DNA from: Enchytraeus crypticus
Taxonomy: Eukaryota > Annelida > Clitellata > Enchytraeida > Enchytraeidae
Direction: 5' to 3'
NCBI GenBank assembly: GCA_905160935.1
Contig: CAJHZI010000382.1
Location: 718,501-782,500 of the forward strand
DNA length: 64,000 nt
Every line of letters begins with the position of its first letter. Positions within the stretch are counted from its first letter, which is position 1. A model generated the notes under the pieces. It was not told where the DNA came from. It did not search any database and was given only the letters and a program-made list of their open reading frames with translations. The translations under genes were made by a program, and so were the position numbers. This document shows positions 15,470 to 63,200 of the stretch, piece after piece.

Positions 15470-18400
15470 TTATGAGTTGGCTCTTGACTTGTTTCCTGCT
15501 GAACTGTCCTGAATACAGTTCATTATACGAATGGCTGCATCCGGAATACGAGTTCCTGTAAATAAATCACAGTAGTCAATTCCAATATAAAAGTTCACAA
15601 GAAGCAAATCACCAAAATCTAATCAATTTGTCCATTTAGCAAACACATTTTCAGATTTTCTTGCTATTTAATGCCAATGACACCTCAAGATATCAATTCT
15701 TCACTTCAGTTGTGAATTCGTTGTTCAGTTGTTGATTCTAGTAGTGAATCAGACGAAGTGCTTACTGTCGCCCAACTCTAAATGTATTTCAGAGCACAAG
15801 TTATGATGTCACGCGGAAAATGACAGGCATAACCAATTCTGGATTACAATATCTTGGCTGAATTAACCAAGTAAACGTCTAATAAGATTAGTAGGAAAAA
15901 GAGAACACTTGCCACTACACTAACCAAGATGTGGTCAACTAATTTAGTGTTTAGTGTGAAAGTTTGAGTCGTCACTATTTCAACTACATCATATGTATTA
16001 TAACAGGCTAGACAATTGAGCTGACTTGCACATTGATCATTTTTTATCAATGTATTTATTTTAAGGAGTTAAATACCAAATGAAAACTGAAAGCTTCGGA
16101 TATTGTACAATAGTGCAAGACGCCCCCTGAGAACTCATGGTAGGAGACTTATACATTTCCAGATATAGAATATATCTCAGAGAAGAGTAGATTAATTAGA
16201 CGAGAACACTTCTCAAATTAAATATGATACAATACTTTGGTAATTTGTTTCATTTTCTTCGATTTCTACCAACTCTCTATATCATATGTCTTACATCAAT
16301 GGTCACCATCATCGTCTTCCCTTTAATCCCAGTTTAATTAGAGGTGGGATACGAATAGACCTTCTACTTGTATACGTTTTACAACAATTTTGCAATTAAT
16401 TATAATTATCGATATTAAAATGAACAATTTGCACAGGTAATTACCAACCTGGTCCAAACACTTCGCAAACACCAGCTTTGTGAAGAAAATCATAATCCTG
16501 AGGCGGGATGACCCCCCCTGCGGCCACCAGAATATCTCTAAAATATTCATGAAACATGGCACCCTTCAGACTTAAGAGTTCAGATATTAAGCTACTGTTA
16601 TCTAAGCTTCGGAAGAGCTTCAATTAGCATGCAAACAGTGGACACAGAAATATCTTAAGTTGCAAAGGTAGGAGTTACGCTATGCCTAGATTATATTATA
16701 ATATAGAATCATCATCATCATCATTCCCCGCGTTGTGTCCGAGTCGTTTGAAGAATTTGACCAACCGGTGACTGCACGTGTCGTAGAAGGCGACTAACAC
16801 ACTAAGATTCATACCAACAGTCAGAAAGGGCATTCGGTTGGTGAGGGCCTAGGCTCCAGTAATTGCCGCAAAACTTAACTAATGGATAAACTTCTAAAGT
16901 GGACTGGAGAAAGTCTATTCGTATCCCGACCCAGGTTAAACTGGGATTTAAGGGAAGATGATGATGATCATCATCATCGTCTTCTTCCCTTAAATCCCAG
17001 TTTAACCAAGGTCGGGATACTTATAGCATAGAATAAATATTAATATACAAGTACACAATACCTCCATTTAAACTATAGAGAGGTTAAGAATGTATTTTAT
17101 TATACTGAATACATTTAACAATACAGCATAGCCACTTTAATCAGATTCTGAAAATATACAAACTACGAGATCAATAAGACAAAGATATTCTAATATGCCA
17201 TTTCGCAGTATTATTAAATTTGGAGTTAAATATCAAATTCTCACAGCCAATAATAATAATAGTAATAATAATAAATTAAACTAATAATAACAATAATTTG
17301 ATGATACCTTAACAGGCTGGGCTAAATGAATCGGAATTGCTCGCTAGGATCTGCCGGGCCATGCTACACAAAATGTCACTTTATTATCATCATCATCAGT
17401 TCCTTGCGTTCTGAAGAGAACATAAGGTGACAACATTCCTCCATTATTTTCTGTCTTTAGCAATCCTCACAGTATCTTCCCATGAAATGTAAAAGTTTTC
17501 AAATCTTTGTTGATCGTGTTGAACCAAGTACTTCTAGGTCTTCCTCTTTTCCTTATTCCTTGACTTGGCTTCCAATTCATTACAGTCTCAGCATATATAT
17601 CATCAGGCATCCTTAATACGTGACCCAGGAACCACACTCTTCTTTCCACAACTATTTCATCTAATTTTCTTAAAATGTCCCTTTATTACGTGCATTAAAT
17701 TAATTAACTTAGTTAATTGCTACCTTCAGTAGCAACTAAGTTACTTAATAGAATAAACTAATGAACTGAGAGCTTTTATGCGTGAGTAGTTACGGATACA
17801 TACGTTGACGTCTCTGACATCATCCCTGGATGAGGTAACGGATGCTAAACCTTATATTATTATTATACATACGGACGACCTTTAGGCGCGACCTTTAGGC
17901 GCGACCTTTAGGCGCGTGTATATGGATACATACGGACGACCGAGAGCCTTCAGTTGCTGGATTAGCTCAGGAATCAGAGTCTTGTGCCCAGCAGCCAATG
18001 AGCTCACTCCTATGATGTGTACGTCTGCATCCACAGCTTGCTGCGCTGCTTCCGCCGGAGTCTACACACAATTAACAATCAATCAATAGAAATTTCAATC
18101 AATTTACTCCCAACTAATCATCAAAAGTTATCAACAAATATAACTGAATCGGGTTTAAAAAGTGAACCACAGAGTTTCATATAAAAAGAAAATTAGAAAA
18201 TATTCCTTTCTCCTAGCGCTCAGCCAAATGATGGATCTGCGGCACTAGTTCCACTCAAAGAGGAACATGTAATAATAATAATAATAATAATAATAAAAGT
18301 TTAGCGTCCGTTTCCTCATACAAGAATGATGTCAGGGACGTCAGAGTATGAGAATTGCACAGAATTGTACAATACATTCTATGTAATGTACAGTATATGG

Positions 18401-60200: not shown

Positions 60201-63200
60201 CACAAGAATTGAATGTTCTAAACTAATTGTAGGCGAATCATTAAAATTGTTTAGTCTCACAGTAATACCTCCTGAGAATGCTTTTAGTATGAAACTATTG
60301 GACCTATAACACCTTGAATGAAATCTTTATCGTTAGACCTACAGATATCATGTGGGTGCAATAGCTTGCAATTCAAACCATAAATGTTTGTCCCTATTAT
60401 GTAAGTCTATGACGTTTATTTTGCCTAGTAATTTATTATTCAGGTTTTTTACTATTCCGAAACCATATTATGGATATTGCCTAATCACCGAAAACGGCAT
60501 CGTATAAAGTAGTCTCGAAATGCAATTTCGAATATGACACTTTGTGGAATGTACTCATATATAAATACCTCTCATTTGTACCTATGTAGTGAGATTTGTA
60601 ACTAGATGATAAAATAATAGGTCATAAATAAACGGATAAAGTGGTTTTTACTGGTGTAACATTGACAACGAAAAGGCTTAAGTAAATTATTATCAATCTG
60701 GATAGATATGTCGCTGATTTTACGGCTGAAGTGGACATTATCGGAGCTATATGGCGTTATTGGAAAGCATCTACATTGAAAATCCATTCTGCAACGCTCG
60801 CGAGATATGCCGTGTGATATTTTGTCGAATTCGCCCATGTACTGGAAGTATTTACCACAGACCGCAGCTAGACAAAGAAAAATAAGCTGATATTACTACT
60901 AAGGGAGATATTTATTATTAATTTACTCCTTGGTCCTTCATAATAATAGTGTAGTGAGAGTTTTTATCAATTGCAGAAGATAAAATTGTCTCGAGATTTT
61001 TAAATGCTAGTCAAAATCGTTATTAAGGTCTTAGACTATTCTATGAATTCTTTCTTGCTTTACCTTTTGTTAATACCGTCGATATGGAAAAAGTAACATC
61101 AAACATGTAGCTTAACACTAGTCAATAATTTACCTAGGTAGTGTTATCTCTCTCGCTGTCTCTCTCTTTCTCTCTCTCTTTCTAGTTTTCTGCCAAGTCC
61201 AAATATTCATACTCAGTCTGTTTTCACTTTTCATATAGCGCACTCCTTAGAATTGCAAAATAATCTGTGATGTAGCCTATAGCTTGAAAATAATATGGCT
61301 TTTGATGTTGTTTCTCGTAGCCTTCAACAGTTTTTGCTTTGTCGTCTCTTACTGTACGTGCAGTTTATGGTTGGTCTCTTCTTTAGCGTCTCGGACACAT
61401 CTCATGAAAATACTAATGTCGTATGTGTTACATTTTTGTTCATTTTGCTATTGTACAGACGGCAGGTCTATCGTCGACAGCTGTTAAGACAAACGGATTG
61501 GAATCAGGAAAAGTTGGAGCTTCATTAGATGTCGAGGTTAAATAAAATTATTTGTGCAATTAAAATAAAATTGTTTTCACTTTTCTACTCATTTCGGGTG
61601 CTGCTATTTCGATTTCTTTATATGATTTATTTTAGTTTTGAGAATTACAGTACAATACGTGAATTATATTAACAGTGTCTTTTATTGCATCTCTGAATGT
61701 GTTAATCTTTTAGTCAAGATATATATGATATACTTATTGGCTTCGATAAAAACTCTTAGTGATTAATCATTTTAGCAAATGGTTAAAAAATTAAAGATTC
61801 TAATAAATATTTAAATATCCAATTAATATTTTTCTGAAGAAATCTGTAGATTTTTACAATAAATGTGTGAGATTAGTGATATACTAATTAATTATTGATT
61901 GACCGACTGATTGACTGACAAGCCGATTGACGTACTGATCGGCCAAACAAGTAACTAACTAGATGAATGTCTGAATGACTGACTGCTTCACTTATTAGCT
62001 GATTGGCTGGTTGAATGACCAACTAACTGCCCTCTGACTGATAAAACCTGACTGACTAGCACTCTGACTGAGCAGTCTAGACAGGCTGACTAGCACTCTG
62101 ACTGATCAGTCTAGACTGGCTGGCTAGCACTCTGCCTGATCAGTCTAGACTGGTTGACTAGCACTCTGACTGACCAGTCTAGACTGGCTGACTAGCACTC
62201 TGACTGACCAGTCTAGACTGGCTGACTAGCACTCTGACTGATCAGTCTAGACTGGCTGGCTAGCACTCTGACTGACTGTCTGACTAACGTGGCTTGGTAG
62301 GTGATTGAGTTTGATTGGATTGATTGATTGTAGAGTGACGAGGATTCCATACCACTTCATATAATGCTGCTCTTGATGGATGAAGTGTTTGATCTGAAGA
62401 CGCGTAACCAATGGCTACGAAGAAGAATTGTGACTATACTTCAGCAGATAGCTAAGACAATGTTTGGAGATAGTATTAACAGGTATTGCGTGGTCTCTAT
62501 GGTTTTATTTTAATGTTATTATGCAAACGCTGATATATAGTGCAATGATTGGAGGCTTTACTAACAATGAATTATTAACAGTGTTCACATTATAGCATTA
62601 TTAACTGAAATATTAACTGTAGATTCTTCAAAGTACTCTTTGTGAGCAGCGTTAGTGTCATTTAAATTGTAAATGTTCCTCACGTTTTCCTCCCTGACGT
62701 CTTTCACGTACACGTATGTTAACGTTAGCTCTCTATTGTTATGATCTTGATTTATTAGGAGGATCGTAGAGACAGTGATCTATATGAACGTTAGCTCTCT
62801 ATTGTTATGATCTTGATTTGTTAGGAGGATCGTAGAGACAGTGACCTATATGAACGTTAGCTCTCTATTGTTATGATCTTGATTTGTTAGGAGGATCGTG
62901 GAGACAGTGGCCTATATGACGGCGCCCGATCAGATCGCCGAGTACATTCGTCACTTCAGAGACTCTCACTGGCCTAACGGTACGAGGGCCGAAGCTCAGC
63001 CCGAGCGAGATCTGAACACTAAGATGAGATGTAGAGTCGTGTGCAAGTCTAAACTGTACGGGCATTTCTCAGGTTCGTCTATTTATCATGAGCTTTTTGT
63101 CATAAACCTGTAGAGCTAAGTTTAAAGTATGTTTTCCTGCCACAAGTGAACTATCGCAGACAGTCTGGCTGGATTCGCTTCACGACTTCCAGGCCATCAA

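Follow-up and report, generated by a model that had tools for sequence, protein, structure and literature searches.

We analysed a window of 64,000 nucleotides of Enchytraeus crypticus DNA (the whole stretch under study; assembly GCA_905160935.1, contig CAJHZI010000382.1) that carries two neighbouring genes, MMUT and SNX13. At six of their exon borders the exon edge is repeated, together with the adjoining intron and its splice signal, in local tandem copies with units of tens of base pairs (bp). We believe that these copies are quite probably "mirage" minisatellites, which arose when short tandem duplications crossed exon borders by chance and whose extra copies are not spliced. The structure has been described in lancelets and is apparently new for this annelid lineage.

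Results

Arrays at the exon borders

The genes and the border arrays are listed below. Coding exons are numbered E1 to E17 in MMUT and S1 to S24 in SNX13; the vertical bar marks the exon border.

15470..36645, minus strand: MMUT (methylmalonyl-CoA mutase), 17 coding exons
39221..63993, plus strand: SNX13 (sorting nexin 13), 24 coding exons; PXA, RGS, PX and Nexin_C domains
23769..23837, minus strand: MMUT E10 acceptor array, three units of 23 bp, TTATTTGATTGACAG|GTCATTGA; exon start at 23776 (reading down)
27145..27193, minus strand: MMUT E10 outlying units, two further 23-bp units, lying about 3.3 kb upstream within the same intron
22950..23041, minus strand: MMUT E11 donor, 21-bp copy, ACAGTGRCAGTG|GTAACT, 71 bp downstream
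18653..19011, minus strand: MMUT E14 acceptor array, eight upstream units of 42 bp, GTAG|RAG, and the functional copy; exon 18513-18653
17865..17941, minus strand: MMUT E15 donor, the 16-bp GGTCGTCC|GTATGTAT recurs 61 bp downstream; a 13-bp x3.2 array separates the two copies
53603..53940, plus strand: SNX13 S17 donor array, 59 bp x5.7, ...AACACAG|GTCAGT; its first copy forms the end of the exon (53640)
62721..62919, plus strand: SNX13 S23 acceptor array, 66 bp x3, ...TTTGTTAG|GAGGATC; its last copy forms the start of the exon (62891)
47203..47301, plus strand: SNX13 S9 acceptor, 36 bases of the exon (47266-47301) recur 63 bp upstream

Both 5' and 3' borders are affected, namely the donors of E11, E15 and S17 and the acceptors of E10, E14 and S23. 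The original prediction, made from the letters of the window, had named six junctions in arrays that copy the splice site itself. For E10, E14, E15, S17 and S23 the splice signal is indeed copied; at S9 it is the exon edge only. There 33 of the 36 bases are alike, the similarity fades over the junction and the acceptor AG has no counterpart, and on this alignment S9 would count as a partial case, not a clear copy of a splice site. The E11 donor was absent from the prediction. Tandem Repeats Finder (TRF) detects the arrays of 42, 23, 59 and 66 bp and the 13-bp array at E15.

The unit lengths and numbers given in the prediction for the five borders agree with what is seen. The E10 unit, proposed in 3+2 copies, has three copies at the exon and two at 27145-27193, with at most two mismatches (none of 100 shuffles gives a match). 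The stretch of about 3.3 kb between the two groups holds a reverse-transcriptase frame on the opposite strand (RVT_1, E 2e-13); since units lie on both sides of it, the array is probably older than the insertion of this stretch. For E14 the "about nine" units are eight upstream ones plus the functional copy. TRF stops 18 bp short of this exon and our event caller 15 bp short, but a gapped alignment ties the functional copy to the array, as does an ungapped match that the point scan gives at an offset of 84. The E14 units vary by point changes, and the exon-side unit seems the most diverged when the unit alignment is judged by eye; the outermost unit is partly degenerate, and one of the eight upstream units has lost its AG. 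The two units of 61 bp proposed for E15 correspond to the 16-bp copy 61 bp away, with the 13-bp array in between.

In SNX13 the S17 array (predicted as six units of 59 bp) and the S23 array (three of 66 bp) are likewise found. The S17 units are 76-100% identical in an identity matrix; they show an ABAB pattern of 118 bp, and the outer unit is degraded (76-80%). The copied segment was said to take in a few exon bases; this holds for E10 and E15 (about 8 in each), but S17 copies 38 exon bases and S23 copies 28. These bases are coding and align with homologues, so the exon is the likely source, and copying at S17 and S23 is likely to have run from the exon into the intron.

A unit of exon bases joined to the adjoining intron with its splice signal, which is the mark of a mirage, is thus present at six borders and partly at S9. 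Homogenised inner units with diverged edge units, another mark, are seen in S17 and E14; the remaining arrays are not long enough for this to be judged.

Two minor observations belong here. In the 42-bp array at 18640-19026 (minus strand) one frame is open for 129 codons and reads as a 14-residue repeat. The start of MMUT intron 11 (22950-23041) also holds AATGCTTATTTAC twice, as judged by eye; together with the border copy this suggests several small duplications stacked there.

Gene models

The spliced frames of both genes are open from the ATG; E17 of MMUT was read separately and not joined by script to E1-E16 in this check. The models give 41 coding exons (17 and 24), whereas the prediction spoke of 47. 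The shortest of the 38 introns measured has 200 nt. The product of MMUT E1-E16 has 724 residues and aligns to residues 31-724 of human MMUT (8gju/2xij) with 1212 bits.

The SNX13 product has 977 residues, and its relatives are given here for the best 120 of the 247 matches considered. The top four are proteins from contigs of 3.4-4.6 kb, perhaps transcripts, with 59-63% identity. The first named relatives are Capitella (56%), Paralvinella (55%) and Owenia (52%), all of them annelids, ahead of the lancelet (47%); Lineus shows 49%. Among nine homologues aligned with SNX13, one (P0006) has a gap at the start of exon 23 and one (P0014) a 15-residue insert at the start of exon 9. Exon 13 of SNX13 apparently ends in a GC donor (GACAAG|GCAAGT, 50982-50987), the sole non-GT donor in both models.

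What the copied sites could do

Each copy site was substituted for the real one in the gene model, and the frame was then read. All 23 substitutions truncate the protein (five at E10, eight at E14, one at E15, one at E11, five at S17, two at S23 and one at S9); the S9 entry is a neighbouring AG at a shift of 56 with no aligned copy, and one of the E14 entries has no AG. Copies shifted by multiples of three (those of E14 and S23, one of S17 and one of E10) run into stops too, and entry into E14 from any of the eight array copies gives a truncated protein despite the frame of 129 open codons. The exon-proximal copy alone yields the conserved protein, as judged from the alignments of both proteins and from the substitutions.

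The prediction that the copy which keeps the frame is the exon-proximal one is therefore correct; it is, nevertheless, demanded by gene survival and adds no independent evidence. We considered this rule as a sign of a special process and rejected it: every other placement tried breaks the protein, so survival alone explains the rule.

The sites were scored by a matrix derived from the locus itself (40 acceptors and 39 donors), the tested site being excluded. Among the 23 copies, 17 match or exceed the real site or fall at most 1.5 bits below it, and six are weaker. At S17, five donors lie downstream within 300 nt, and four of them score the same as the real one. With scores so nearly equal, site strength cannot mark the real border for most copies. 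In every case the real border is the donor that comes first or the acceptor that comes last.

Are borders enriched in duplications?

The prediction suggested, as one of two possibilities, that tandem duplication is promoted at the exon-intron borders of this genome. Events were called at a score of at least 14 and an offset of 10-150 bp, with 706 microsatellite bases masked and repeats of low dinucleotide entropy dropped; E14 was counted as junction-spanning by hand from its gapped alignment. The point scan had an extension limit, so that scores do not leak from arrays to far points (e.g., the S17 and S22 acceptors). Local duplications themselves exceed chance: in four first-order Markov sequences of like composition, the share of points covered by local copies scoring at least 16 was 0 to five decimals.

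The same caller finds duplications away from borders as well. There are 26 events in the gene span, of which six are at junctions and one more touches an exon. In the relocation test each event was placed at random, and an exon was allowed to hold at most one terminal copy. The six junction-spanning events compare with 1.3 expected (P 0.001-0.0016 in two runs), the seven that touch an exon with 1.6 expected (P 0.0005-0.0008), and the 11 lying on an exon or at most 60 bp from a junction with 4.6 expected (P about 0.003). As the score cut-off is raised, 21, 17, 15 and 11 events remain, among them 6, 5, 5 and 5 spanning ones, respectively (P 0.00015-0.0017). Without E14 there are five spanning events, and the Poisson P is 0.011 with no bias correction. 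Duplications with one copy in an exon remain detectable for longer because selection keeps that copy. A 1.5-fold correction for this bias gives P 0.015 for six events and 0.05 for five; a two-fold correction gives about 0.05 and 0.12.

The per-position test (78 junctions, the E17 acceptor being left out) shows no excess. At a score of at least 16, six of the junctions lie in a local copy, where the intron points lead one to expect 4.6 (P 0.32). Thresholds of 14-16 give 4.6-5.0 expected and P 0.32-0.38; across all ten thresholds, which range from 11 to 30, the number of junctions falls from 7 to 4, with P 0.32-0.61. This test is harsh, because the junction arrays themselves raise the intron rate. 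Border enrichment of tandem duplications at this locus is therefore suggestive: the relocation test supports what was predicted, but a two-fold bias brings P to about 0.05 and the per-position test finds nothing. Both the hypothesis and its test come from this one locus.

The density of events is 0.54 per kb within the gene span and 0.37 per kb outside the genes (6 in 16.25 kb). The 19 events of the gene span that have no exon contact amount to about 0.40 per kb over 47.75 kb, close to the density outside. A special unit size at junctions was considered and rejected: it is 23-71 bp in the six spanning events vs 16-143 bp in the 19 others (Mann-Whitney P 0.55). Two candidates for further cases were also dropped, the donor of MMUT E12 (score 11, not satisfying the two-sided rule) and the acceptor of SNX13 S16 (score 12); scores like theirs cover 0.15-0.45 of the 78 points in first-order Markov sequences, and more in real introns.

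The following duplications served as controls.

44662..44908, plus strand: 136-bp x1.8 tandem duplication within an intron, no junction
54702..54849, plus strand: 17-bp x8.7 intronic array, no junction
62048..62275, plus strand: 34-bp x6.7 array in an intron, stopping 57 bp short of the S22 acceptor and copying no splice site

Local duplications at 27609-27739 and 34674-34747 end 29 and 15 bp from the acceptors of MMUT E9 and E3, respectively; these acceptors are not copied.

Discussion

We presume that the arrays began as ordinary short tandem duplications that happened to take in an exon border. Such a duplication would be tolerated, the protein-keeping copy still being at work. The exon-proximal copy would be held by selection on the protein and would remain the splice site, while the other copies would turn into intron and then expand, exchange and decay as minisatellites; the substitutions among the S17 and E14 units look as they do in minisatellite turnover. 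Splicing would pass over the copies, with exon definition and position choosing the most upstream donor or the most downstream acceptor. Most likely, it is these and not site strength that set the border. Ordinary tandem duplication tolerated at borders, followed by minisatellite turnover, is the simplest account. It involves no special process at borders, and we hold it, taken as a whole, to be probable by a good margin over doubt. Some of the results weigh against it. Junction-spanning events are about 4.6 times more frequent than expected, and an origin blind to borders needs a detection bias of about two-fold. Six of the 23 copy sites are clearly weaker or have lost the signal, and their decay may partly explain why they are neglected. 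It is from protein alignments only that we infer normal splicing.

Considering this excess, it is tempting to propose that the genome favours duplication at its exon-intron borders, through transcription, RNA-DNA hybrids or breakage, so that borders are true hotspots. The relocation counts, both for spanning events and for those on or near exons, agree with this; so do the amphioxus papers (PMC3902484, PMC3087553), which, in the parts drawn upon here, name such structures in several genes. However, the excess is absent from the per-position test at all ten thresholds, the longer detectability of events with a selected copy raises its P to about 0.05 if the bias is two-fold, and only five spanning events are left without E14. 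The units of spanning and other events are alike in size, and the idea and its test were drawn from one locus. We consider hotspots unlikely. That borders are hotspots in this lineage as in lancelets, by a border-linked process, with mirage formation as a general feature that some animal genomes have independently, seems to us slightly less likely again. If true, a steady supply of splice-site copies would exist by which borders could shift. The hotspot claim is the interesting part that is still open; the support for it is suggestive, and the question is one for a whole genome.

It could also be that the extra sites are used or selected, in alternative isoforms, poison splicing or recursive splicing at AG|GT, and represent early intron gain; the prediction had raised both selection of redundant splice sites and intron gain under way. 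The near-equal scores of most copies are in line with use. Units with AG|GT occur in E10 (23 bp) and S17 (59 bp) only, and each is in principle removable as GT...AG; moreover, repeats at human exon-intron boundaries are reported, in the part of PMC2812944 covered, to form novel introns. Still, every copy truncates the protein in place of the real site, which speaks against selection for redundancy, and the AG has been lost in one E14 copy. As for intron gain, the units of 23-71 bp are far below the shortest intron, the arrays fall within introns of the models, and no new intron with ends from a duplicated segment is needed to keep either frame open in the MMUT and SNX13 models. We find this explanation hard to accept, and neither claim of the prediction is supported by these data.

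The arrays may, finally, be an artefact, with repeats collapsed or wrongly expanded, and their copy numbers could be wrong in the assembly. Some arrays are perfect (the 17 bp x8.7 array and the 136-bp pair), and one amphioxus mirage is said, in the part of PMC3087553 used, to be misassembled in the draft genome. In contrast, the copies at S17, E14, S23 and E11 differ by substitutions, and the E10 units flank the stretch with the reverse-transcriptase frame. An artefact as the general explanation is very improbable.

The closest known structures are the amphioxus mirages of Adh3, the globins BflGb6 and BflGb9, troponin C and PGBD5 (the last two added by PMC3902484). In the portions of these papers relied on (PMC3087553, by Ebner and others, and PMC3902484), the units have 10-72 bp in Adh3, matching the unit sizes in MMUT and SNX13, or 150-160 bp in the globins. 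They stand at 5' and 3' borders and splicing is reported as undisturbed; PMC3902484, in the part covered, says that mirages yield no aberrant mRNAs. The likeness extends to units of tens of bp with an exon part and the splice signal, to both donors and acceptors, to an authentic border copy accompanied by intronic duplicates with the protein product kept, and to the edge unit that escapes homogenisation. Unlike in amphioxus, the nearest named SNX13 relatives here are annelids, and the six borders belong to two adjacent genes known from genomic sequence alone.

The gain of introns through tandem duplication (model of Rogers 1989; Hellsten 2011; the potato RdRp case) also involves duplicated segments with AG or GT signals. 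In this model the new intron must leave the protein whole (PMC4974935, in the part consulted); in contrast, no new intron is seen here, and the copies are intronic in the models and truncate the protein when used alone. The human internal tandem repeats of De Grassi and Ciccarelli 2009 (PMC2812944) are similarly minisatellites at exon-intron boundaries. From the part of that paper covered, they are reported to give alternative transcripts and novel introns in recent paralogues, whereas the MMUT and SNX13 arrays are described from DNA. A paper on earthworm metallothionein reports minisatellites in introns as well as duplications of exon 4 that are said not to appear in the transcript, with no border arrays in the part covered.

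No annelid mirage was found among the literature matches listed, the search leaning on openly readable papers. The mirages among these matches are from lancelets; six in two neighbouring genes suggest that the structure is spread more widely among animals and is dense in some genomes. Two questions become testable: do exon borders draw tandem duplications, and by what means is one border chosen in splicing from several nearly equal copies? For the latter, the S17 array with its downstream donors is a natural test of border choice.

Other features of the window

A Tc1/mariner-type transposase frame of 371 residues (32946-34058, plus strand; HTH_Tnp_Tc3_2 and DDE_3) lies in the intron that separates E3 from E4 of MMUT and is flanked on both sides by AT-rich microsatellites. 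An element of about 120 bp (GGAGCCAGTGGCGATGTCGGTAAG...TTCAAATCCTGGGCTCGCCCGTCACTGAC) is dispersed on both strands and, as judged by eye, resembles a short interspersed element (SINE) derived from tRNA. Its copies, also located by eye, are the following.

34800-34900, 35684-35998, 44000-44130, 47480-47620, 58030-58170 and 63310-63430, both strands: dispersed SINE-like element of about 120 bp

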